Shown: positions 52,969-64,000 of the stretch, one piece after another
How the letters are laid out: each line of letters begins with the position of its first letter
How positions within the stretch are numbered: position 1 is the first letter of the stretch
Source: Geomonas paludis
Lineage (GTDB): Bacteria; Desulfobacterota; Desulfuromonadia; Geobacterales; Geobacteraceae
Assembly: GCF_014193585.1 (NCBI RefSeq)
Contig: NZ_BLXY01000004.1
Location: 124,001-188,000, forward strand
Direction: 5' to 3'
Length of the DNA stretch: 64,000 nucleotides
Translations under genes and position numbers: made by a program
The notes under the pieces: generated by a model
Told to the model about the DNA's origin: nothing
Databases searched by the model: none
What the model saw: only the letters and a program-made list of their open reading frames with translations

Positions 52969-53020
52969 TTGCTACCTCCGTTGGTATCTCGCTCCCCGTC
53001 GTTGGAGAACGCCACACCCT

Positions 53021-53037
53021 AGCAAGCACTCTGCCAA
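53021..53037 (-). promoter_or_regulatory. Sigma-54-like promoter of amt
   Basis: Minus strand TTGGCAGAGTGCTTGCT compared with TTGGCACN5TTGCT: one mismatch (C to G) with exact -24/-12 spacing. It lies about 50 bases before the amt ATG. Nitrogen-regulated sigma-54 activators such as NtrC are expected to act here. Confidence 0.65.
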
Positions 53038-53206
53038 GCCGCTATCCCTTTGAAATGACGCGGGTGGCGTTTTTCTCCTAATGAGAGGCGCGCGGCAAAC
53101 TGCCCGGAAAACAGGCAGCGGTGCCTAAGGCTTGGGCAGGATTTAAAGGTTGACCTGTAAACGGCCAGCAGGTAAATTTGTGCACACTTTCGCCGGAGGT
53201 AGCCCG

Positions 53207-54364
53207 TTGTCGCGCAAGACCGCACTCATCGCCTGTACCGACCTGTCCGGGTACTGCTATGGTGAGCAGCACCCGTTCAAGGTGCAGCGCTACCGCCTGG
53301 CGCGCGACCTGATGGACGCTTACGGATTGCTCAACCTCCCCGCCATGGCGGAGGTGCGGCCCCGCGCGGTGACAGAACCGCAGCTTTTGGGGGCGCACCG
53401 CGCCGACTACCTGGAGCGGTTGCGGGAGTTCAGCGCGGCCGAGGAGCCGAGGGCCGACTTCCGCTACGGCTTAGGTGACGTGGAGAATCCCGTCTTCCCC
53501 GGCGTCTACGACTGGGCCTGCCTCGGGGTCTCCGGCACACTGGAGGCGGCGCGGCTGGTTGCCGAGGACGGCTTCGCCGCCGCCTTCAACCCGCTGGGCG
53601 GCTACCACCATGCCCAGGCCGGGCGCGCCTCGGGCTTCTCGTACCTGAACGACGCCGTGGTCGCCATCAACTACCTACTGGAGCAGGGCAAGACGGTGGT
53701 CTACCTGGACCTGGACGCCCACCACGGCGACGGGGTGCAGAACGCCTTCTACGGCGACGACCGGGTGCTCACCATCTCCCTGCACGAAAGCGGGGTCTAC
53801 TTCTTTCCCGGCACCGGTTTCGAGAACGAGACCGGCGAAGGGGCGGGGCGGGGGTACTCGGTGAACATTCCCCTTTTGGCCCACACCGACGACGCCTTGT
53901 TCATGAAGGCCTTCGACGAGGTGGCCTTCCCCCTGATCGCCGCGTTCGACCCCGACGTCCTCTTCACCCAGCTGGGGGCCGACACCTTCAGGACCGACCC
54001 GCTCACCCGTCTCGAGGTGACCACCCACGCCTACTCGTATATAATGAGGAAGCTGCGCGCCCTGGAGATCCCCTGGGTCGCGGTGGGGGGAGGGGGGTAC
54101 GACCAGATGAACGTGGCGCGGGCCTGGACCATCGCCTGGGGCATCATGAACGACCGGGAGCTTTCCCCGCGGCTCCCCGCCCGGTTTGTCGAATTGATCT
54201 CGCAGCTTGGCTACCCGCACCGGATGCTCCTCGACGCCATGCACTGGGCCGAGGAGGACGACCGCAACCGGGCGCTCGACGCGGTGGAAAAGAGCATCGC
54301 CTACGTGCGCGACCACATCTTCCCGGTCCTGATCGGCGACTATGGCAAACGATACCGGACATGA
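53207..54364 (+). CDS. Histone deacetylase family (AcuC-like) protein
   Basis: The 385-residue zinc amidohydrolase has the arginase-fold HDAC signature: LGGYHHAQAG (the two histidines), YLDLDAHHGDGVQ (zinc Asp and His), FTQLGADTF (second zinc Asp) and VAVGGGGYD. AcuC-like relatives deacetylate acetyl-CoA synthetase or other proteins. The start is TTG at 53207, seven bases after GGAGGT; the earlier in-frame codons have no ribosome site. Its 3' end overlaps the next gene by 23 bases, so the four genes to 56677 form an operon. Confidence 0.85.
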   Translation: MSRKTALIACTDLSGYCYGEQHPFKVQRYRLARDLMDAYGLLNLPAMAEVRPRAVTEPQLLGAHRADYLERLREFSAAEEPRADFRYGLGDVENPVFPGVYDWACLGVSGTLEAARLVAEDGFAAAFNPLGGYHHAQAGRASGFSYLNDAVVAINYLLEQGKTVVYLDLDAHHGDGVQNAFYGDDRVLTISLHESGVYFFPGTGFENETGEGAGRGYSVNIPLLAHTDDALFMKAFDEVAFPLIAAFDPDVLFTQLGADTFRTDPLTRLEVTTHAYSYIMRKLRALEIPWVAVGGGGYDQMNVARAWTIAWGIMNDRELSPRLPARFVELISQLGYPHRMLLDAMHWAEEDDRNRALDAVEKSIAYVRDHIFPVLIGDYGKRYRT

Positions 54365-55148
54365 GGTATTGAAGGACAGCGGGGGGAGGCAGCTCTTCTC
54401 CCTGTACGACATCAACCGGTTGCCCGCCGCCGAGAAGGAGGCGATCTACCGGTCGCTGCTCCCCGAGCGCCTTTTGTCCATGGTCGGCGAGGGGGGCGGG
54501 AGCGTCGAGGTGATCGCCCCGGAGGGGCACCGCTTCCTGCGCCTGGTCGCCCGCTGCACCCCCGGCGCTGCCGATCCCGCCTTCGTGCTGGATCTGTGCG
54601 ACACGCACCACGGCCAGATGGAGCTCTCCTACTGCACCATCGCCGATCCGGCCGCGCCGCGCTTCGACGTCGACCTGGACGAGCATGGGAAAAACAACCT
54701 GTTCGCCACCTTGGGACGCAACCTCGCCGAGGAAGAGCGCGCCATGGAGGCGGGGCTCTTTCCCAACCAGACCCGCCGCGGCCTGAGGATGTTCGGGGAG
54801 TTCCTGCCGCGCCTGGAGCGCCTGGTGGCAGGCCTGGGCATGCAGCTCATCGTTGCGGAACCCTTGAGCTACGACAACGCCATCCGCTACGAGGGGTACG
54901 GTTTCGACTACGTGGTGGGCAAAAGGCTGATGCAGGAGATCGACGCCGGCTTCGCCCCGGGGGGCGTCCTGTACCGCAGGCTGGACGGTTCCACCCCCTT
55001 CCGGCGCCCCGGGATGGAAAAAAGCGTGCAGGGGCGCAGTTGGGCCGTCCACGACGGCATCCTCGACGAGCCCTGGGACGAGGTGCGCATCTACAAGACC
55101 ATCGGCGTGCACGCCGGTGTCAACACGTTCCCGGGACGGGAGCGTTAG
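54342..55148 (+). CDS. Hypothetical protein in the HDAC operon
   Basis: The 268-residue cytoplasmic protein is mixed alpha/beta, with no signal peptide or membrane helix. I do not recognise the family. Notable features are LDLCDTHHGQMELSYC (about 83-98), FDVDLDEHGKNN, a strong helix EEERAMEAGLFPNQTRRGLRMFGEFLPRL, and VNTFPGRER at the end. It overlaps the HDAC-like gene and precedes a TPR protein, so it probably acts with them. Confidence 0.7.
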   Translation: MANDTGHEVLKDSGGRQLFSLYDINRLPAAEKEAIYRSLLPERLLSMVGEGGGSVEVIAPEGHRFLRLVARCTPGAADPAFVLDLCDTHHGQMELSYCTIADPAAPRFDVDLDEHGKNNLFATLGRNLAEEERAMEAGLFPNQTRRGLRMFGEFLPRLERLVAGLGMQLIVAEPLSYDNAIRYEGYGFDYVVGKRLMQEIDAGFAPGGVLYRRLDGSTPFRRPGMEKSVQGRSWAVHDGILDEPWDEVRIYKTIGVHAGVNTFPGRER

Positions 55149-55168
55149 CGGAAAAAGGAGTGCGTTGC

Positions 55169-56113
55169 ATGGAGAGAGAGATGACCCCGCTCGCGGGGAT
55201 AACCTATTACCGCCCCCCCCAGGGGACCGAGGTGAGCGGGCTGGACGGCAAGGTCGTCTTCACCGTCGGGCCGGAGCCGATCCCGCTGCTCGATGACGAC
55301 TACCAGGCGCTGGAGGGACAGCTCCCCGGCTACGACGCCGTCGGGCGCGGCATCTACCAGGCCCTGCGCACGGACCCGGGCTGCCGCTACTGCGAGCTGT
55401 ACGCCGAGATGCTCAAGGGGTACCCGCACTACGTGTCCGAGCTGGCCAGCCACATCCTGATGCTCGGGGAGAAGGACGTCGAGGTCCCCTACCTGGAGCG
55501 GCGCGTGAAGCTTTTGCGCATCTTCGCCCTGATGGAGCCGGAGAACGCGCACTTCCCGCTGGAGATCGGGGCGACCCTTCTGGAGCAGGCCTGCCGGTTC
55601 TCGGCGCTGCACCTCTCCACGGTCACCCTGTTCAAGGCGGAAGGGTACCTGGAGCGGGCCCGCGAGCTGGGCGGCGACCAGCCCCGCTGCCTCACCACAC
55701 TGGCCGAGGTCTCCTTCCTGTTGGGCAAGTACGACAAGGCGGCCTCGCTCTGGAGCCTGTTGCTGCCCCAGGTCGAGGCGACCGCCCAGGCCGAGCTGAG
55801 GGCACGCCTGGAGAGGATCGAGCGCGGCGAGGTGCCCCGGGTGCCCGCGGTGGACTACCTGGAGGCGATCGCGGGCGCCATGGCGCTGCGTGAGGACGGC
55901 GGCTACCAGGAGGCGACCGCCATCCTGAACGACGTCATGGCCGACGCCTGGTTCGCCCTGGAATTCCCCATGGCGGAAATCCCGTATCTGCTGGCGCTTT
56001 GCTGCAAGGACCTGGGCGCTGCCGGCGATGCACGTTTTTACCTGCGCCAGGCCCTCAAGATCAACCCCGAGTTTGAAGAGGCCAAGGCGACACTGCAGCA
56101 ACTGGAACAGTAG
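55169..56113 (+). CDS. TPR-like helical repeat protein
   Basis: The 314-residue protein is mainly alpha helical with TPR-like repeats: CLTTLAEVSFLLGKYDKAASLWSLL, then a C-terminal ARFYLRQALKINPEFEEAKA (about 290-310). The N-terminal part (about 1-60) is proline-rich and beta-like (VSGLDGKVVFTVGPEPIPL). It probably scaffolds protein contacts. ATG 55169 follows AAGGAG nine bases upstream. Confidence 0.7.
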   Translation: MEREMTPLAGITYYRPPQGTEVSGLDGKVVFTVGPEPIPLLDDDYQALEGQLPGYDAVGRGIYQALRTDPGCRYCELYAEMLKGYPHYVSELASHILMLGEKDVEVPYLERRVKLLRIFALMEPENAHFPLEIGATLLEQACRFSALHLSTVTLFKAEGYLERARELGGDQPRCLTTLAEVSFLLGKYDKAASLWSLLLPQVEATAQAELRARLERIERGEVPRVPAVDYLEAIAGAMALREDGGYQEATAILNDVMADAWFALEFPMAEIPYLLALCCKDLGAAGDARFYLRQALKINPEFEEAKATLQQLEQ

Positions 56114-56121
56114 GAGGAGTC

Positions 56122-56217
56122 ATGTTCGGATTCAGCCCGGCAGATTGGATCTTCATCGCCGGCGTAATGGTGGTAATCTTCTTCTTCGTTGCCGTGAGCG
56201 GCATGCGCAAACGGTGA
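56122..56217 (+). CDS. 31-residue single-pass membrane protein
   Basis: An ATG at 56122 follows TAGGAGGAG and opens a 31-codon frame: MFGFSPADW, a hydrophobic helix (IFIAGVMVVIFFFVAVSG), and the basic end MRKR, then TGA. A strong ribosome site, a hydrophobic core bounded by charge, and its position in an operon of closely spaced genes support a real small protein. Function is unknown; it may be a membrane-bound regulator or a subunit partner. Confidence 0.6.
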   Translation: MFGFSPADWIFIAGVMVVIFFFVAVSGMRKR

Positions 56218-56272
56218 TGAACCATGGCGGGTGTTTTCCCGCCGGCAACCGGACCGGATGAGGGAGGTGCTT

Positions 56273-56677
56273 ATGCAAGTTCCTGACATCAAAGAGATAC
56301 TGACCAAGTACCGTACCATCGCCGTGGTGGGGCTCTCCCCCGACGCCGGCAAGCCCAGTCACGAGGTCGCCGCCTATCTCAAGCGGGCCGGCTACCGCAT
56401 CATCCCGGTCAACCCGGCGGTCAGCGAGGTCTTCGGCGAGAAGAGCTACCCGACCCTGGCCGAGATCCCCGAGTCGGTGGAGATCGTCGACGTCTTCCGC
56501 CGCTCCGAGTTCGTCCCGGAGATCGTGGAGCAGGCCATCGCCAAGGGGGCCAAGGTGCTCTGGCTGCAGGAAGGGGTGGTCCACGAGGCGGCCGCGCAGC
56601 GCGCCCGCGAGGCCGGGCTCGCGGTGGTGATGGACCGCTGCATGTTGAAGGAACACGTAAAGTGGGTGAAACGTTGA
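56273..56677 (+). CDS. CoA-binding (succinyl-CoA ligase-like) domain protein
   Basis: The 134-residue protein has the CoA_binding_2 pattern: YRTIAVVGLSPDAGKPSHEVAAYLKRAGYRIIPVNP, then VEIVDVFRRSEFVPEIVEQAI and VLWLQEGVVHEAAAQRAREAGL. The family is a Rossmann-like fold that binds CoA; its enzymatic role, if any, is unknown. ATG 56273 follows GGGAGGTG. It is the last gene of the HDAC-led operon. Confidence 0.87.
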   Translation: MQVPDIKEILTKYRTIAVVGLSPDAGKPSHEVAAYLKRAGYRIIPVNPAVSEVFGEKSYPTLAEIPESVEIVDVFRRSEFVPEIVEQAIAKGAKVLWLQEGVVHEAAAQRAREAGLAVVMDRCMLKEHVKWVKR

Positions 56678-56716
56678 TACTGCTGCATGTGGTCAGGCAA
56701 AACGGCGGGGTGCCTC

Positions 56717-57150
56717 ATGCCCGATGAAAGCGGCAGGCGCCCCGCCTCGCTCTGGCCCCTGGTCCTGCTCACCTCGTTCTCGCTGCTGCTCTGCTTCTCC
56801 AGTTACGGCAACCCCTTTCCCTTCATGGGAACCCTTTACCAGGGGGGGGCGCACAACGCTTCGTCTTCGGCGACAGCCTCATCTCCTTGTACCTGCTGCT
56901 CGGGGTGCTCAAGCGGCAGCGTCTCACCGTGTGGCTGCTGATCGGCTACAACCTGCTCGACATCTGCAACGCCTGGGTCAACCTCTCCCTGATCCCCGCG
57001 GCGGAGTACGCGCGCCTGGCCGATGCACCCGTCCCCGAAGGGGACCTCCTGTCTTCGACGCTGCTCGCCTCCATCGCCCTGATCCTGATGAACGTGTACA
57101 TCTTCAGGGTGAGGCGAGAGTTCGACAACCCTTCTCCCTATCTTTTCTGA
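56717..57150 (+). pseudogene. Membrane protein gene split by a frameshift at a G8 run
   Basis: One reading frame starts at ATG 56717 (MPDESGRRPASLWPLVLL) and encodes a membrane helix up to NPFPFMGTLYQGG. It then runs into a run of eight Gs at 56842-56849 and continues as a Ser/Cys-rich, unlikely tail. The frame one base behind encodes the rest: GAQRFVFGDSLISLYLLLGVLKRQRL, two further membrane segments and the end DNPSPYLF at 57150. One extra base (or a -1 shift) in the G run joins the two into a protein of about 145 residues with three or four helices. It is a pseudogene, a phase-variable gene, a slippage site, or a sequencing error. The family is not recognised. Confidence 0.7.
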
Positions 57151-57206
57151 CTGTGACCAGTCCCGCGAAGGTTGTGTAAACGTTAAGTGTCCTCAAATAT
57201 TCCCCC

Positions 57207-57236
57207 TTGCCAGCGGGCTTACAACTCTGGTACTAT
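57207..57236 (+). promoter_or_regulatory. Sigma-70 promoter of the cytochrome-porin operon
   Basis: TTGCCA, 18 bases, TACTAT, giving a predicted start near 57243. The transcript would have a leader of about 90 bases before the ATG at 57334. Confidence 0.5.
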
Positions 57237-57333
57237 GTGCGCGCTTCCTTGCAACGGCAGGTGACAGAATTTACTGGCAAAGCCGGTCTTATCACGATGG
57301 TCGGCGTGACACTTCGTTCTCAAAAGGATACCG

Positions 57334-58167
57334 ATGTTCGAGAAGCTTAAGCACGGCCTCCCCGGCTCTTTCTTTCATTCAGAGAACGGCCACCAGCCGG
57401 TGAACCTGCACGACACGCGGGGCGTGGGCATCAGGATCGAGCAGTTGAACAAGTCCTTCGGGCCCAACCACGTGCTCAAGAACGTGAACCTCGAGATCCG
57501 GGCGGGTGAGACCTTCAGCATCATCGGTCCCTCCGGCACCGGCAAGAGCGTCCTTTTGAAACACATCGTGAAGCTGGAGACCCCGGACAGCGGCGAGATC
57601 TACATCGACGATCTCCCCCTCTTCGGGGAAGGCGCCCAGCCCTCGGCCCACGACTACCGCTACAGCATGGTGTTCCAGTCCTCGGCACTGTTCAACTCCC
57701 TCACCGTCGGGGAGAACGTGGGGCTGTGGCTGCGTGAGAAGAGGGTCTGCAAGGAGCTGCAGGTCCGCGAGATCATCAAGCAGAAGCTGGAAATGGTCGG
57801 GCTGGTCGGCAAGGAGGAGCTGCGTACCTCGGAGCTCTCCGGCGGCATGAAGAAGCGCGTCGCCATCGCACGCTCGCTGGCGATGAACCCGGACCTGATC
57901 CTGTACGACGAGCCGACCGCCGAGCTCGATCCGGTCACCACGGACGAACTGGCCAACACCATCCTGAAGCTCAAGGAGAGCACCAGGAACACCACGGTGA
58001 TCGTGACCCACGACCTGAACTTCGCGCTGTACATCTCGGACCGGATCGCCATGATGCACGGCGGCTCCGTGGTCGAGGTGGGCACCCCGCGCGAGATCAA
58101 GATAAGCGACAATCCCATCGTGCGCGGTTTCATCTACACCACGACCAAGGGGATAAGGGGGGAATAG
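57334..58167 (+). CDS. ABC transporter ATPase, MlaF type
   Basis: The 277-residue ATPase has Walker A GPSGTGKSVL, the Q loop VFQSSALFNSLTV, signature LSGGMKKRVAIARS, Walker B LILYDEPTAELDP and switch His in VTHDLN. The sequence and ending resemble MlaF/Ttg2A ATPases for lipid transport. It has an N-terminal extension of about 30 residues with FHSENGHQPVNL. No MlaE permease or MCE protein follows; instead a multiheme cytochrome gene starts directly at its stop. Its partner permease must be elsewhere, or the protein has a different role here. Confidence 0.85.
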   Translation: MFEKLKHGLPGSFFHSENGHQPVNLHDTRGVGIRIEQLNKSFGPNHVLKNVNLEIRAGETFSIIGPSGTGKSVLLKHIVKLETPDSGEIYIDDLPLFGEGAQPSAHDYRYSMVFQSSALFNSLTVGENVGLWLREKRVCKELQVREIIKQKLEMVGLVGKEELRTSELSGGMKKRVAIARSLAMNPDLILYDEPTAELDPVTTDELANTILKLKESTRNTTVIVTHDLNFALYISDRIAMMHGGSVVEVGTPREIKISDNPIVRGFIYTTTKGIRGE

Positions 58168-59169
58168 ATGGCAGCACGTCTTCTGCGCCGCGGCAAATTC
58201 GTGATCCTCATGGCGCTCTTCCCCCTGCTCTCGGTCTCCTGCGCCGATCTGAAGCAGAGCAAGCCCATCCTCCCCATCCGCGACTACGAGAAGATGATCG
58301 TAGGCCGCCTCGACACCGAGTACGTCGGCACCAACAACTGCGTCTCCAAGTGCCACGCACACGACAAGATCACCGACGACTTCAGCCACAGCGTGCACGG
58401 TGAACAGATCAAGCCCGAGACCGGGCTGCCGCTGGTCAACTGCGAATCCTGCCACGGTCCCGGCAGCCTCGCCATCGCCCACCTAAGCGACGACGGCGAG
58501 GAGAACACCCGCCTCAAGAAGAAGTGCGATACCTCGACCTTCCTGGACATCATGCACCTGCCGGCCCAGGCCCAGTCCCTGATCTGCCTGAAGTGCCACT
58601 CGGCGGCGTCGATGCCCGTGCTGTCCCACTGGAGCGCAGGGCCGCACGCGCTGCACGACGTCGGGTGCTTCGACTGCCACAAGCTGCACCAGGGGCCGCA
58701 GCAGAAGGTGAGCCGGCAGCAGATGTCGGAGATGTGCTTTACCTGCCACCCGGAGGTGCAGGCGGAAAACTCCCTGTTCTCGCACCATCCGCTGCGGGAG
58801 AAGAAGATGTTCTGCGTGGACTGCCACGAGGTGCACGGCTCGACCCAGGACCGCCTGCTCAGGGGCAACACCCCCAAGGAGACCTGCACCAGGTGCCACA
58901 TGGAGAAGCAGGGGCCCTTCGCCTTCGAACACGCAGACGTCACCGAGAACTGCATGAACTGCCATACGCCGCACGGGTCGGTGAACAACAACCTCCTGAA
59001 CGCCGCGATGCCGTTTCTGTGCCTGCAGTGCCACACGGGGCACCTGGCCAGCAACACGCCGGGGCTGAAGCAGCTCTTCGTCAACCGCTGCACGGACTGT
59101 CATTCCCAGGTGCATGGCACCGATACCCCGTCCCCGGCCATAACCGGCAGGGGCACGCTGCGCCAGTAA
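58168..59169 (+). CDS. Ten-haem c-type cytochrome lipoprotein (DmsE/MtrA-like)
   Basis: The 333-residue protein has a lipoprotein-like signal (LFPLLSVSC) and ten haem-binding sites. Nine are CxxCH (CESCH, CLKCH, CFDCH, CFTCH, CVDCH, CTRCH, CMNCH, CLQCH, CTDCH); the first is CVSKCH, a CX3CH variant. Length and haem number fit the DmsE/MtrA decaheme group, which passes electrons through an outer-membrane barrel. The lipobox serine at -3 is less typical, so lipidation is likely but not certain. It directly precedes a large beta-barrel gene. Confidence 0.88.
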   Translation: MAARLLRRGKFVILMALFPLLSVSCADLKQSKPILPIRDYEKMIVGRLDTEYVGTNNCVSKCHAHDKITDDFSHSVHGEQIKPETGLPLVNCESCHGPGSLAIAHLSDDGEENTRLKKKCDTSTFLDIMHLPAQAQSLICLKCHSAASMPVLSHWSAGPHALHDVGCFDCHKLHQGPQQKVSRQQMSEMCFTCHPEVQAENSLFSHHPLREKKMFCVDCHEVHGSTQDRLLRGNTPKETCTRCHMEKQGPFAFEHADVTENCMNCHTPHGSVNNNLLNAAMPFLCLQCHTGHLASNTPGLKQLFVNRCTDCHSQVHGTDTPSPAITGRGTLRQ

Positions 59170-59183
59170 CAGAAAGGAGCCCG

Positions 59184-61442
59184 ATGGTGGAAAAACCGCT
59201 CATGAAAACCGTCGTCTCGCCTCTGCTGCTGCTGTTGCTGGCCGCCGGGGGAGTGGCTGCCGCAGACCAGGAGCCGCTTCCGGCGGCGAGCCAGGAGGCG
59301 CCCGCGGCTGCGGAAAAGGATGCCCCCGCCGACGCACCCGCCGGCACCGTCGCCGACGAGGAGCAGCCGGCCGCCGTGACTTCTCCCGCCGCCACGGAGC
59401 AGCCGCCTGCCGAGGGCGCCGAGCCGCCTGCCCCGGCCGCCGAGGAGCCACCGGTGCAGCCGTCGATCGAGGCGATTCCGCTGCCGGAGGATGAGCGCCA
59501 GGTGGAGGTCTTGGAGCAAAAGGGGGGATCGCTCGGCTACAACTTCGTCTTCGGAGAGGACAACCAGGGGCGCGCGCTCGAGTACGGTTTTTTGAAGTCC
59601 AGCCGCAGCGGCGGGCTCTTCTACCGGCACATGGAGAAGGACAGCAACCTCGAGCTGGAAGGGTTCTACCTGAACGAGAACGATTACCACGCCGACCTGC
59701 TCATGGACTACAAGGGGGATTACCGCCTGCATCTCAGGGCCGAGTCCCTGTACCACAACCTGGACCGTGAGATCCTGTTCTCCCCCTCTTTCACCACCGG
59801 GCGGACCGACGCCGGCACCCCTGCCACCTACACGGCGGTACAGGGCCCGGTGGCGAACTACGGGGTGAGCGTGGTGCAGGACCGGGCCGACTTCCGCTAC
59901 CGGCTGCACAATTTCCCCCTGCACGTGAACCTCGGTTACTGGCGCTACGTGAAGGAAGGGACCATCCAGCAGCGCTTCGCCGACACCGCCTTCGAAGGGG
60001 CCACCAACACCATCTACGCGCAGCGCCGCGGCGTCGACCAGCAGGTCCAGGAAGGGCGCGTGGGGCTCGACTCCCACCTGGGGCCGGTGGACCTGGTCTA
60101 CGACTTCAAGGTGCGCTACTTCGAGGACCGGCTGCCGATCCCGGTGCAGACGTACGAGGCCCGCAACCACTTCAACGGCGCGGCCGACTTTCTCGGCGGC
60201 GCCCGGCAGCACAACGAAAATCCGGACAGCAGCTTCTTCTCCCACACCATCAAGCTGCACACCTCGCTGGCCGGCGGCCTGATCGGCTCCGGCTCGTACA
60301 GTTTCGAGCAGCGCGAGAACCTTTCGGAGTTGAGCGACACGAGCGGCGCCCGGCACATGAAGAGCTACCTGCAAAACGCCGCCGGGGACCTGGTCTATAC
60401 CCCCAGCCGGGAGTACACCTTCGCCGTCAAGTACCGGCGCCAGGAGATCGACCACAACAAGCGCGGCCCGTTCAGCAACAGCGCCTTCACCGACCCGGTG
60501 GTAGTCGCCAAGACCCCCACTGAGTCTACCCGCGACCTGGTAACCGGCACGATGTCCTATCGCCCCACGCTGCATCTCGCGCTGGTCGGCGAGTACCGGG
60601 GCGATTTCCTGCGCAGGAACAACGTGACCGACCTGCCGTCGGAGACCACCTGGGCCGTGCCGGAGAGCACCTCGACCCACACCGGGTCGCTCTCGGTCTA
60701 CTACCGCCCCGTCAGGGGGCTCAGGACCAGCGCGCACTACAGCTATGCCAGCGCCGACCACCCCGCCTACGGCGCCTCCTTCCAGGAACGCCACGAGGCG
60801 AAGCTGCTGGCCACCTACACGGTCAACAACCGCTGGGGGCTCATCAGCCATGCCATCCTGCGCCGCGACCAGAACGACGAGGTGCGCAAGTACCTGGTGA
60901 ACGTCCCGTTCGAGCCGCTCTCCTTCTCGCTGGCTCCTTTGACCGCGCGCAGCACCAACAGCGAGAACGCCAACCTGGGACTCTGGTGGGCGCCGCTGCA
61001 GGGGCTCACGCTGGGCGTGAATTACGCCTACCTGCACCAGGAGGTGGAGCAGGGTATCCTCTTCACCGGCGTGTTCACCGGCAGCCAGGCCGCCTCGCAG
61101 TTTTCCAGCAGGTCCCACGTCTACGCGGTGAACGCCTCCTACGCGGTGAGCGAGAAGAGCGACCTCGCGGTGGCGGCACAGCAGATCAGGTCGTCCGCCG
61201 CCTTCACGCCGACGGACACCACCTTCACCGTGATCCCCGGCAGCACGACCGGCATCAAGGAGATCTCCGCGCAGGATACCGTGATATCTACGCTTTCGGC
61301 GCGTGGCGAGTACCGCTTCACAAGCACACTTTCCACCACGCTCGAATACACCCTCAACGATTACAACGAGATGAAGCCCGCCTATAAGGATTACAGCGGC
61401 ACCGTCCACACCGTCGTCGCCGGCCTCGCGGCCAGGTGGTGA
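59184..61442 (+). CDS. Large outer-membrane beta-barrel, MtrB/PioB-like
   Basis: The 752-residue protein has a signal peptide (about 1-27) and an Ala/Pro/Glu-rich linker (about 28-95). About 650 residues of alternating amphipathic strands follow, rich in aromatic girdle residues (YRLHNFPLHVNLGYWRYVKEG, SLSVYYRPVRGLRTSAHYSYASADH), and it ends in Trp, as outer-membrane barrels do. Size and position next to a ten-haem cytochrome fit the porin of a porin-cytochrome conduit. No N-terminal CxxC, as seen in Shewanella MtrB, is present. Start 59184 follows GAAAGGAG; GTG 59187 and ATG 59202 are alternatives. Confidence 0.78.
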   Translation: MVEKPLMKTVVSPLLLLLLAAGGVAAADQEPLPAASQEAPAAAEKDAPADAPAGTVADEEQPAAVTSPAATEQPPAEGAEPPAPAAEEPPVQPSIEAIPLPEDERQVEVLEQKGGSLGYNFVFGEDNQGRALEYGFLKSSRSGGLFYRHMEKDSNLELEGFYLNENDYHADLLMDYKGDYRLHLRAESLYHNLDREILFSPSFTTGRTDAGTPATYTAVQGPVANYGVSVVQDRADFRYRLHNFPLHVNLGYWRYVKEGTIQQRFADTAFEGATNTIYAQRRGVDQQVQEGRVGLDSHLGPVDLVYDFKVRYFEDRLPIPVQTYEARNHFNGAADFLGGARQHNENPDSSFFSHTIKLHTSLAGGLIGSGSYSFEQRENLSELSDTSGARHMKSYLQNAAGDLVYTPSREYTFAVKYRRQEIDHNKRGPFSNSAFTDPVVVAKTPTESTRDLVTGTMSYRPTLHLALVGEYRGDFLRRNNVTDLPSETTWAVPESTSTHTGSLSVYYRPVRGLRTSAHYSYASADHPAYGASFQERHEAKLLATYTVNNRWGLISHAILRRDQNDEVRKYLVNVPFEPLSFSLAPLTARSTNSENANLGLWWAPLQGLTLGVNYAYLHQEVEQGILFTGVFTGSQAASQFSSRSHVYAVNASYAVSEKSDLAVAAQQIRSSAAFTPTDTTFTVIPGSTTGIKEISAQDTVISTLSARGEYRFTSTLSTTLEYTLNDYNEMKPAYKDYSGTVHTVVAGLAARW

Positions 61443-61456
61443 CCAAGGGGTAACGT

Positions 61457-62422
61457 ATCAAGACACTGCTACGTTCCATAGTTCTGCTCCTGCTGCTTGG
61501 CGCGGTGATTCCCGCGGCGGACTCCCGTGCGGCCGGAAAGCTGGTTGCGGCTCTTTTGACCTGCGACCTGCCGCGTTACCGCGAGGCCCACAAGGCGTTC
61601 GTGAAGGCGTTGGTGCAGAAGGGGTACGATCAGAGCAACGTCGAGGTGATCACCCAGACCCCGAACCCGGACCTCATCTCCTGGTCCAACAGCGTCAGGA
61701 AGTTCAACGCCATCGGCGCGGACGTCATCGTCACCTACGGCACCTCCGCCACGCTGACCGCCCTGCGCGAGGCGCAGGATATCCCCGTCGTGTACGCCGA
61801 CGTGTACGGGCCGGTGGAGACCGGGGTGGCCAGGAACATGTCCTCCAGCGGGCGCAACAGTACCGGGGTGAGCTCCAAGGTCCCCCTGGTCACGCTGATC
61901 AAGACCGCCACCGAGCTCAAACCGATCAAGACCCTGGGCATCATCAGCGCCAACCGCGAGGAAGGGGCGCTGGTGCAGCTTAAGGAGGCACGCAAGATCG
62001 CCGCCCAGTCGGGGATCGTGCTGGTGGAAACCAACGTCGGCTCGATGGGGGCGCTGGACGGAGCCTTGGCCACCCTCTATGCCACCAGGGTCGACTGCGT
62101 CTACGTCACCGAATGCACCGCCGGGAGCCGGTCCTTTGAAAAGATCGTGCACCGCTGCAACGAGCTGAAGATCCCCGTGATATCGCAGATGCCGGGCGCG
62201 GCACACAAGGGGGCGGTGGTGTCCCTGGAGGCGGACCCCGTCGAACAGGGGCAGCTGGCTGCCGAATACGTCGCGCGCATCCTGAGCGGCAAGAAGGCGT
62301 CGCAGCTGCCGGTGGTCACGCCGAGGCGGGTGGATCTGATCGTCAACCTGAAAGCGGCGCGGCTGCTTGACCTGAACGTTCCCTTCCCGGTGCTCAGCGC
62401 GGCGACCCGGGTGCTTAAGTAG
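61457..62422 (+). CDS. ABC_sub_bind family periplasmic protein, apparent ATC start
   Basis: The 321-residue product matches the ABC_sub_bind (TrpX-like) pattern: AHKAFVKALVQKGY, ADVIVTYGTSATLTAL, VVYADVYGPVETG, LGIISANREEGA, and VDCVYVTECTAGSRS. The in-frame GTG at 61505 would give a protein without a complete signal peptide. Starting at ATC 61457 gives KTLLRSIVLLLLLGAV and a cleavage region, six bases after AAGGGG. A stop at 61451 excludes any longer start. So the gene probably starts at a non-standard ATC (or an ATG changed in this sequence). Its ABC partners are not in the window. Confidence 0.75.
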   Translation: MKTLLRSIVLLLLLGAVIPAADSRAAGKLVAALLTCDLPRYREAHKAFVKALVQKGYDQSNVEVITQTPNPDLISWSNSVRKFNAIGADVIVTYGTSATLTALREAQDIPVVYADVYGPVETGVARNMSSSGRNSTGVSSKVPLVTLIKTATELKPIKTLGIISANREEGALVQLKEARKIAAQSGIVLVETNVGSMGALDGALATLYATRVDCVYVTECTAGSRSFEKIVHRCNELKIPVISQMPGAAHKGAVVSLEADPVEQGQLAAEYVARILSGKKASQLPVVTPRRVDLIVNLKAARLLDLNVPFPVLSAATRVLK

Positions 62423-62438
62423 ATACATCGAGGTATTG

Positions 62439-62825
62439 ATGGGAAGAATTTTGATCGTTGATGACGATGCGGCTTTCGTAGGAGCGCTCAAGGACAAGAT
62501 CCAGGCGCTCTACCCGCTGCTGGACGTGATAACCTGCACGGAACCGCTGCTGGCGCTGACCATACTGAGGCAGGGGAGGGTGGACCTGTTGCTGGTGGAC
62601 CTGGAGATGCCGACCCTGGACGGCTCCAAGATCTTCAGCTACGCCCTCTCGGTCGGTGTCGACAAGAACCGCATCGTGATCCTTTCCGGGCGTGACTCGG
62701 ATTACCTGCACGAGCAGTTTCCCATGGGGACCTGTCTGGCGGTGCTGAACAAGTACGAGGCGAAGCAGAAGGCGGTGCTGGATATGATCTTCAGCTCGAT
62801 GCAGAGAAAGGCCGCGGCAAGTTAA
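62439..62825 (+). CDS. Single-domain response regulator (receiver)
   Basis: The 128-residue protein is a lone receiver: RILIVDDDAAF, phospho-Asp in LLLVDLEMPTLDG, and Lys in AVLNKYEAK. No output domain is present, so it probably acts by protein contact or as a phosphate sink. It lies 16 bases after the binding-protein gene. ATG 62439 follows GAGGT; a preceding TTG is in frame but not needed. Confidence 0.85.
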   Translation: MGRILIVDDDAAFVGALKDKIQALYPLLDVITCTEPLLALTILRQGRVDLLLVDLEMPTLDGSKIFSYALSVGVDKNRIVILSGRDSDYLHEQFPMGTCLAVLNKYEAKQKAVLDMIFSSMQRKAAAS

Positions 62826-62861
62826 ATATCGGGGTTCGCCCTGTTTCAGGAGTTGGATAGT

Positions 62862-63251
62862 ATGGCAAAACAGATGAGACTGACCTGTTACGGACGCAGC
62901 AAGAGCAAACCGGAATGGGAAGCGATCCTTTCGGGATTCACCTTTGATATCTTCTTCGCTGAACTGGCGCAGGAACTGCAGCGCTTCGGCATCACCCTGG
63001 AACTGGGGGAGGACCCCGGGCAGGTGATCGAGGTGAACGGCTACGGCGATCTTCTAAATTCCATCCGCATCGCCTCGCCGTCGGACGGCATCAGCAACAT
63101 CTGCATCGGGCATGTGATCGGGCAGAGCCCGCGGCTTGACCTCCAGGAGGACATCCGGCGCGCGGTGAACCGCATCGCGTTCGCACCGGAGACCGTGGCT
63201 CCCGATGACGAGAACCGCAAGGTCTGCCACAACTGCGGCTGCGGCTGCTAG
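62862..63251 (+). CDS. Hypothetical protein with Cys-rich tail
   Basis: The 129-residue protein has no signal peptide and ends in CHNCGCGC, a compact cysteine cluster that may bind a metal or iron-sulfur group. The body (about 20-100) is mixed alpha/beta, with FDIFFAELAQELQRFGITLELGED. I do not recognise the family. The ATG follows CAGGAG. It is the last gene of the plus-strand block and converges on the phosphoesterase gene. Confidence 0.68.
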   Translation: MAKQMRLTCYGRSKSKPEWEAILSGFTFDIFFAELAQELQRFGITLELGEDPGQVIEVNGYGDLLNSIRIASPSDGISNICIGHVIGQSPRLDLQEDIRRAVNRIAFAPETVAPDDENRKVCHNCGCGC

Positions 63252-63261
63252 AGTGGGCAAA

Positions 63262-63726
63262 CTAGAGAGGGAAGATCTCGGCCTTTGCCGTGGCCCCCTC
63301 GATGGTGACGATGGCGTAGCTCCCGGGTAGTCCCTCCTTCAGGGCGCCCGGGTTCACCAGCAGCATCCCGTCCGCCGACTGCACGTCCGCCAGGTGGGTG
63401 TGGCCGTAGAGCACCACCGAGGCTCCCAGTTGCACCCCCCGACCGATCAGCTGAGACAGGCCGCTCTTCACGTGCTGGCGGTAGCCGTGGGTCAGCAGGA
63501 AGCGGCATTCCCCGAGCTCCAGGGTGAGTTCAGCCGGTACCTGCCGGTCCAGGTCGCAGTTGCCGGCCACCCGGTGTACCGGCACCTCCAGCACTTCCTC
63601 CATCATGCGAGCATCATCGCAGCCATCCCCAAGATGAACGATGTGATCCACCGGGCCGGCTAGTTCGTGCGCCCTGAAGGCGTGGGCGTAGTTGCCGTGA
63701 CTGTCGGAGATTACCAGTACTCTCAT
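63262..63726 (-). CDS. Metallophosphoesterase (YfcE/MJ0936 type)
   Basis: The 154-residue protein carries the metallophosphoesterase motifs: ISDSHGN (D-x-H), HLGDGCDD (GDxxD-like), GNCD (GNH-like; here GNCD), LTHGYRQ and YGHTH. It hydrolyses phosphodiesters in vitro in related proteins; the in vivo substrate is not known. The typical length of this family is about 155-185 residues. It converges on the Cys-tailed gene with a 10-base gap. Confidence 0.88.
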   Translation of the reverse strand: MRVLVISDSHGNYAHAFRAHELAGPVDHIVHLGDGCDDARMMEEVLEVPVHRVAGNCDLDRQVPAELTLELGECRFLLTHGYRQHVKSGLSQLIGRGVQLGASVVLYGHTHLADVQSADGMLLVNPGALKEGLPGSYAIVTIEGATAKAEIFPL

Positions 63727-64000
63727 AGTCCCTCTTCCCGTATCTCTTTCACGCCAGCAGGATACTCAGCCGAGACCCTGCCGCGGGAGATTTGGTTTTG
63801 CGCAGTGCCCTGCATAGTGTAGAGTTGTTGGCGGCGTGCGCAACGTCGTTACGTCACCCTACTGTTCAGATATAGGACAGAGCCCCGGTAAAAGACAAGC
63901 AAAATAAGCTGTAAACGTTTGATCCAGTAGGGGCGAATTAATATTGGCCTACTACAGGCGTTTGATCCTGTAGGGGCAAATAATTATTTGCCCTTGTGCT
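63727..64000. other. Right-end intergenic region with family D palindromes
   Basis: No gene is seen in the final 274 bases. The phosphoesterase promoter should lie near 63740-63830. The end holds two family D units: GTTTGATCCAGTAGGGGCG with ATTAATATTGGCC (63917-63949) and GTTTGATCCTGTAGGGGC with the perfect 20-base palindrome GGGCAAATAATTATTTGCCC (63974-63993). Confidence 0.65.

Follow-up and report, generated by a model that had tools for sequence, protein, structure and literature searches.

A conserved six-gene block of Geobacterales probably combines the ATPase of a split MCE transporter with an MtrAB-like conduit cassette

In the genome of Geomonas paludis an ABC ATPase and a binding protein of ABC type are encoded in one short block together with a multihaem cytochrome and an outer-membrane barrel. 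This raises the question which machine, or machines, the genes of this block serve. Our analysis started from a 64,000 bp stretch of this genome (contig NZ_BLXY01000004.1, positions 124,001 to 188,000), called the window in the following. All six open reading frames that a first-pass annotation had described as six genes in a row were found on the plus strand between positions 57334 and 63251 (Table 1), with intergenic gaps of 0, 14, ~14, ~16 and 36 bp. As that annotation had also stated, no ABC permease was seen within the block, and no outer-surface multihaem cytochrome, as found in MtrCAB and Pcc clusters, was seen among the ORFs of positions 53000-64000. The single promoter that it had assigned to the block was not supported: one sigma-70-like site was found against a chance expectation of 0.9, and the number of terminator-like sites was not above the chance level either, such that neither counts as evidence.

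Table 1. Features of the six-gene block, in window coordinates.
Feature	Position	Strand	Remarks
Sigma-70-like site, TTGCCA-18-TACTAT	57207..57236	+	weak; 1 found vs 0.9 expected by chance
MlaF-type ABC ATPase, 277 aa, with N-terminal extension	57334..58167	+	PF00005; very probable motor of a split MCE transporter
DmsE/MtrA-type decahaem cytochrome (DmsE), putative lipoprotein	58168..59169	+	TIGR03508, MtrA homology
MtrB-like outer-membrane beta-barrel	59184..61442	+	fold match; cysteine-free
SBP, periplasmic ABC_sub_bind binding protein	61457..62422	+	PF04392; start uncertain
REC, single-domain receiver	62439..62825	+	PF00072; Asp54 phospho-acceptor invariant
CYS, 129-aa Cys-tailed protein	62862..63251	+	no family matched; tail CHNCGCGC invariant

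A search with a barrel profile over 277 genomes of the class gave matches in 112 at E 0.001. Of the genomes with strong matches 63 were Geobacterales, and all 63 loci were read. Gene order and orientation of every detected member of the set were identical in all of them, a conservation that is far beyond chance and that answers the check on gene order which had been proposed for the block. All six genes were present in 37 loci and five genes, with CYS missing, in 16 (in each group one locus had the cytochrome gene in two pieces), while 10 loci were without one or more genes, by contig edge or loss. The ATPase was found at 56 of the 63 loci; in genome G057 it is split in two, and in G198 it was located on a separate contig adjoining DmsE. 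One genome (G257) possesses a second copy of the locus (L129), in which the ORFs of ATPase, cytochrome and barrel are fragmented and SBP and REC are full-scoring.

The ATPase matched ABC_tran (PF00005) with 113 bits, and its top solved relatives were MlaF chains, in agreement with its first description as MlaF-like. It missed the MlaF equivalog cut-off (NF008809; 157 vs 441 bits), and in a tree its family forms a branch separate from that of canonical MlaF. Searching the window's genome with PF02405 provided one MlaE. It is encoded on another contig (locus L140) between a protein that we call WPL and a 356 aa MlaD; 36 bp separate the genes of MlaE and MlaD, and the three genes are not interrupted by an ATPase gene. 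None of the 60 ABC ATPase matches in this genome was on the MlaE contig, and the block ATPase is the only MlaF-like one, with a self-score of 612 bits vs 142 bits for the next ATPase. The genome thus contains MlaE with adjacent MlaD and no second MlaF-like ATPase. In 15 further second loci of Geobacterales, WPL and MlaE were likewise found without an adjacent MlaF-type ATPase (MlaD was recognised in 13); in the five loci read from other orders for comparison, mlaF was located between MlaE and MlaD. Very probably, the block ATPase serves as MlaF in a minimal lipid transporter of the MCE (Mla) type whose other subunits are encoded elsewhere. Such a transporter would share MlaE, MlaF and a long MlaD with the three-subunit core of the minimal MlaEFD system reported for Veillonella parvula (PMC10665443), but differ from it by the separation of mlaF from MlaE-MlaD in Geobacterales, the extra WPL and the neighbouring conduit genes. 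WPL (L140:9577-11112) has ~500 aa, an apparent signal peptide and repeated W/F-P-L/F-Y/F segments; it matched no known family and is a possible outer-membrane partner of the long MlaD. A second MCE protein of the window's genome, of 559 aa and with three MlaD matches (L141:5297-6976; G000, contig C3), appears PqiB-like by our reading; the only MlaE of the genome is on another contig.

We tallied by hand 105 Geobacterales genomes, comprising 63 with barrel, 24 with WPL but without barrel and 18 with neither; the tally leaves out the remaining Geobacterales of the 277 genomes, which have neither WPL nor barrel. The ATPase was found in 75 of 78 genomes with WPL (in pieces in G057 and G044) vs 7 of 27 without WPL. 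For genomes that are at least 90% complete the numbers were 64 of 64 and 0 of 18, conduit or not. All ten exceptions (seven with ATPase but no detected WPL, three with WPL but no detected ATPase) were less than 90% complete. The ATPase was found in 21 of the 24 barrel-free genomes with WPL. In G054, G050, G267, G211 and the less complete G274 the conduit was present, with WPL and ATPase both missing. Since the tallied genomes are related, these counts do not represent independent events. In the tree, five conduit-free ATPases were scattered among the conduit-linked ones at more than one position: one nests in the window's genus, the others are located elsewhere in the Geobacterales clade. In its distribution the ATPase tracks WPL, and with it the locus of MlaE and MlaD, and not the conduit, which does not support the earlier idea of orphan ABC components in the service of the conduit.

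A similar separation was seen from the side of the conduit genes. In ten conduit-free loci with ATPase, read over stretches of 9-11 kb, DmsE, barrel and SBP were missing throughout and the genes for ABC ATPase and REC were adjacent, with CYS retained in five. Conversely, DmsE-barrel-SBP-REC without ATPase was found in G054, G050, G267 and G274. Missing together and kept without the ATPase, DmsE, barrel and SBP behave as one cassette in Geobacterales; the same pattern assigns the ATPase to the transporter, and REC accompanies either half. In Geobacterales SBP does not follow the ATPase, being missing from all ten of these conduit-free loci and retained where the ATPase is gone. REC matched Response_reg (PF00072) with 40.9 bits (cut-off 30.2), and its residues D8, D10, D54 and K105 were invariant in 25 of 25 proteins, i.e. 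the phospho-acceptor is intact. It may relay a signal to the transporter, to the conduit or to the two of them. For CYS, an optional companion, profile searches found no family and there is no evident signal peptide; its predicted model (pLDDT 87.8) weakly suggests a thioredoxin-like arrangement.

SBP matched ABC_sub_bind (PF04392) with 134 bits, the family of the aromatic amino-acid binding proteins TrpX and CD0873, and its best solved relatives were 6hni, 3lkv and 3lft. It differs from TrpX/CD0873 in missing the TrpX equivalog cut-off (NF041285; 130 vs 390 bits), in having no cognate permease alongside and, as we read the alignment, in not keeping two specificity residues reported in PMC6816091.

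The cytochrome matched the decahaem DmsE family TIGR03508 with 268.1 bits, above the cut-off of 192.2, and MtrA (6r2q_A) with an E-value of 1.3e-48. Instead of the ten CXXCH sites of MtrA/DmsE it contains nine CXXCH and one CX3CH, the latter being the first site (Cys58-His63), a composition shared by 24 of 24 Geobacterales rows and by 22 of 22 full-length proteins from other orders (L105-L134). Cys25 is a putative lipid anchor within a lipobox that is imperfect in the window.

For the barrel, the structure prediction provided 26-27 long strands following a poorly predicted N-terminal stretch, which agrees with the fold of about 26 strands of MtrB and PioB. Its best fold match was MtrB of 6r2q, at a TM-score of only 0.56. 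No Pfam family scored above its cut-off, and the curated MtrB model TIGR03509 gave no match at E 0.1 for the window's barrel and 33.7 bits (cut-off 240) for a barrel from another order (L113). The closest named relative is from Geomonas anaerohicana (88%). Haem-type motifs were present in 23 of 24 barrels from other orders (CXXCH in 15, CX3CH in 8; L105-L124, L133, L134, L220, L221), such that the ancestral barrel may have held its own haem; Geobacterales barrels have neither motif.

With MtrA homology of the one and MtrB as best fold match of the other, cytochrome and barrel quite probably form an MtrAB-like conduit, as proposed for the block from the start. Like MtrAB, PioAB and MtoAB, the block has a decahaem cytochrome of the DmsE/MtrA family adjoining the barrel gene; unlike in these systems, the cytochrome is a putative lipoprotein with CX3CH at its first haem site, the barrel misses the curated MtrB model and the genes are linked to SBP, REC, CYS and mlaF. 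An adjoining surface cytochrome is also missing from some Fe(II)-oxidising mtr-type clusters, as reported in PMC4245776. With Pcc (OmbB-OmaB-OmcB) the block shares the clustering of a barrel and a multihaem cytochrome, but it is without the 12-haem surface cytochrome, and its partner is decahaem whereas the periplasmic one of Pcc carries 8 haems (PMC4245776). The pair GSU2203-GSU2204 (OmcK and a CXXCH-containing barrel), reportedly up-regulated with iron oxides (PMC4070692), is related to the block by significant NCBIfam matches of 243 and 101 bits, which however are under the cut-offs of 325 and 350; a further difference is that the window's barrel contains no cysteine. NCBIfam annotates the GSU2204 family, to which the barrel is related, as a (seleno)protein family.

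Outside Geobacterales, 24 barrel loci were read from the class. In 13 of them transporter and conduit genes were joined, and WPL-MlaE-MlaF-MlaD-DmsE-barrel-SBP formed one run on one strand (one without WPL at a contig end, one with MlaD in two pieces); the identities of MlaE and MlaD were verified with Pfam and NCBIfam on one such locus, and the MlaE of the window's genome is 59-63% identical to ten MlaE from other orders. The other 11 loci had DmsE-barrel without mlaF. SBP was present in seven and absent in four of these, so it is no fixed part of the conduit there. A homologue of the window protein at 54342-55148 preceded WPL in 8 of the 13 mlaF loci, and so did a gene that we read as HDAC-like in 7 of 13, several other loci ending too early. 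Judged by these common upstream genes, the Geobacterales block and the mlaF loci of other orders occupy the same place on the chromosome. Most simply, WPL, MlaE and MlaD would have moved away from around mlaF in the ancestor of Geobacterales.

We therefore regard the block as, probably, the overlap of two machines, a split MCE transporter and an MtrAB-like conduit, which derive from one ancestral envelope cluster of Desulfuromonadia. This reading is built on gene order, homology, fold match and co-occurrence, from which complexes, cargo, electron flow and signalling are inferred. The ATPase would dock in trans on the MlaE from the second locus, and ATP hydrolysis would drive movement of lipids between the membranes along MlaD. 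The decahaem protein, probably lipid-anchored, would sit inside the MtrB-like barrel and conduct electrons across the outer membrane in a manner comparable to MtrAB and PioAB, with SBP as presumed periplasmic ligand-binding partner of the conduit cassette.

One alternative is that the conduit senses the extracellular redox state or a ligand and reports it to a chemoreceptor or, in Geobacterales, to REC, with or without SBP, rather than supporting bulk respiration. A chemoreceptor of ~787 aa is encoded downstream of the conduit in 8 of the 11 mlaF-less loci, which belong to other families, and an Rrf2 regulator upstream in 7 of 11 (HAMP and MCPsignal domains were checked on two of the receptors and domains on one regulator). 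Also in favour, the congregation of Shewanella at minerals is reported to require both MtrBC/OmcA and a chemoreceptor (PMC5789149), and REC is retained with the conduit in four loci that miss the ATPase. However, the block is without a kinase, REC persists in the conduit-free loci and is thus not conduit-specific, and neither chemoreceptor nor Rrf2 regulator was matched in the 13 mlaF loci. Two of the chemoreceptor loci (L110, L115) have no SBP, such that docking of SBP on the receptor could not be general. A sensory branch of the conduit is plausible; as an account of the block, a sensor is possible but on the whole unlikely.

Alternatively, MCE bridge and conduit could form one working supercomplex that shares cargo or a patch of outer membrane, e.g. 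to supply the conduit with lipids or for the redox handling of a lipophilic carrier. The single run of all parts in 13 of 24 loci from other orders is in favour of this, as are two genomes (L200, L201) in which SBP adjoins MlaD at the second locus with the conduit apart. In the 11 mlaF-less loci, however, transporter and conduit are apart, so the two machines need not work together, and in Geobacterales each survives without the other, as the tally showed. We consider the supercomplex improbable. Only slightly better odds are given to the speculative idea that the bridge of WPL-MlaE-MlaF-MlaD and the MtrAB-like conduit constitute a joint two-membrane machine with a shared binding protein and receiver. 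If this were true, the redox state at the cell surface would control the traffic of lipids or lipophilic carriers, or the reverse.

That the ATPase is an assembly factor of the conduit unrelated to the MCE transporter would agree with its position at the head of the block in Geobacterales, but is very improbable given its absence from four genomes of more than 90% completeness in which the conduit is present and WPL is not, and its presence in 21 of the 24 barrel-free genomes with WPL. A chance association of unrelated genes is already refuted by the co-linearity of all 63 loci, which come from three families of Geobacterales, and can practically be dismissed.

With two overlapping machines as the preferred reading, the "orphan" ATPase receives a testable subunit assignment, and an ABC ATPase gene can evidently sit apart from its permease gene throughout an order. 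DmsE-barrel-SBP becomes defined as a conduit cassette, which goes unmentioned in the portions of the conduit papers covered here. Moreover, an old genetic link emerges in a well-known group of metal-reducing bacteria, between extracellular electron transfer and the transport of outer-membrane lipids. Among the titles and abstract openings of the matches listed, with subscription journals mostly outside the scope, we found no description of a link between conduit and lipid transporter and, as anticipated by the first-pass annotation, no name for a system of such composition. Clustered mtrAB genes in Desulfobacterota, expressed on electrodes in Desulfuromonas acetexigens, were reported in ISME J in 2025 (PMC12133095), in a paper whose main text uses none of the terms ABC transporter, chemotaxis and Mla.

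A minor observation concerns the start of the SBP gene, which is probably an ATC at 61457, with the first in-frame ATG, GTG or TTG only at 61505. Within the start region (61443-61475) an in-frame stop precedes the ATC in the window and in nine close relatives. The ATC follows AAGGGG or GAGGGG at a distance of 6 nt, and in several other loci CTG takes its place. Judged from these sequences, this looks like conserved non-AUG initiation.
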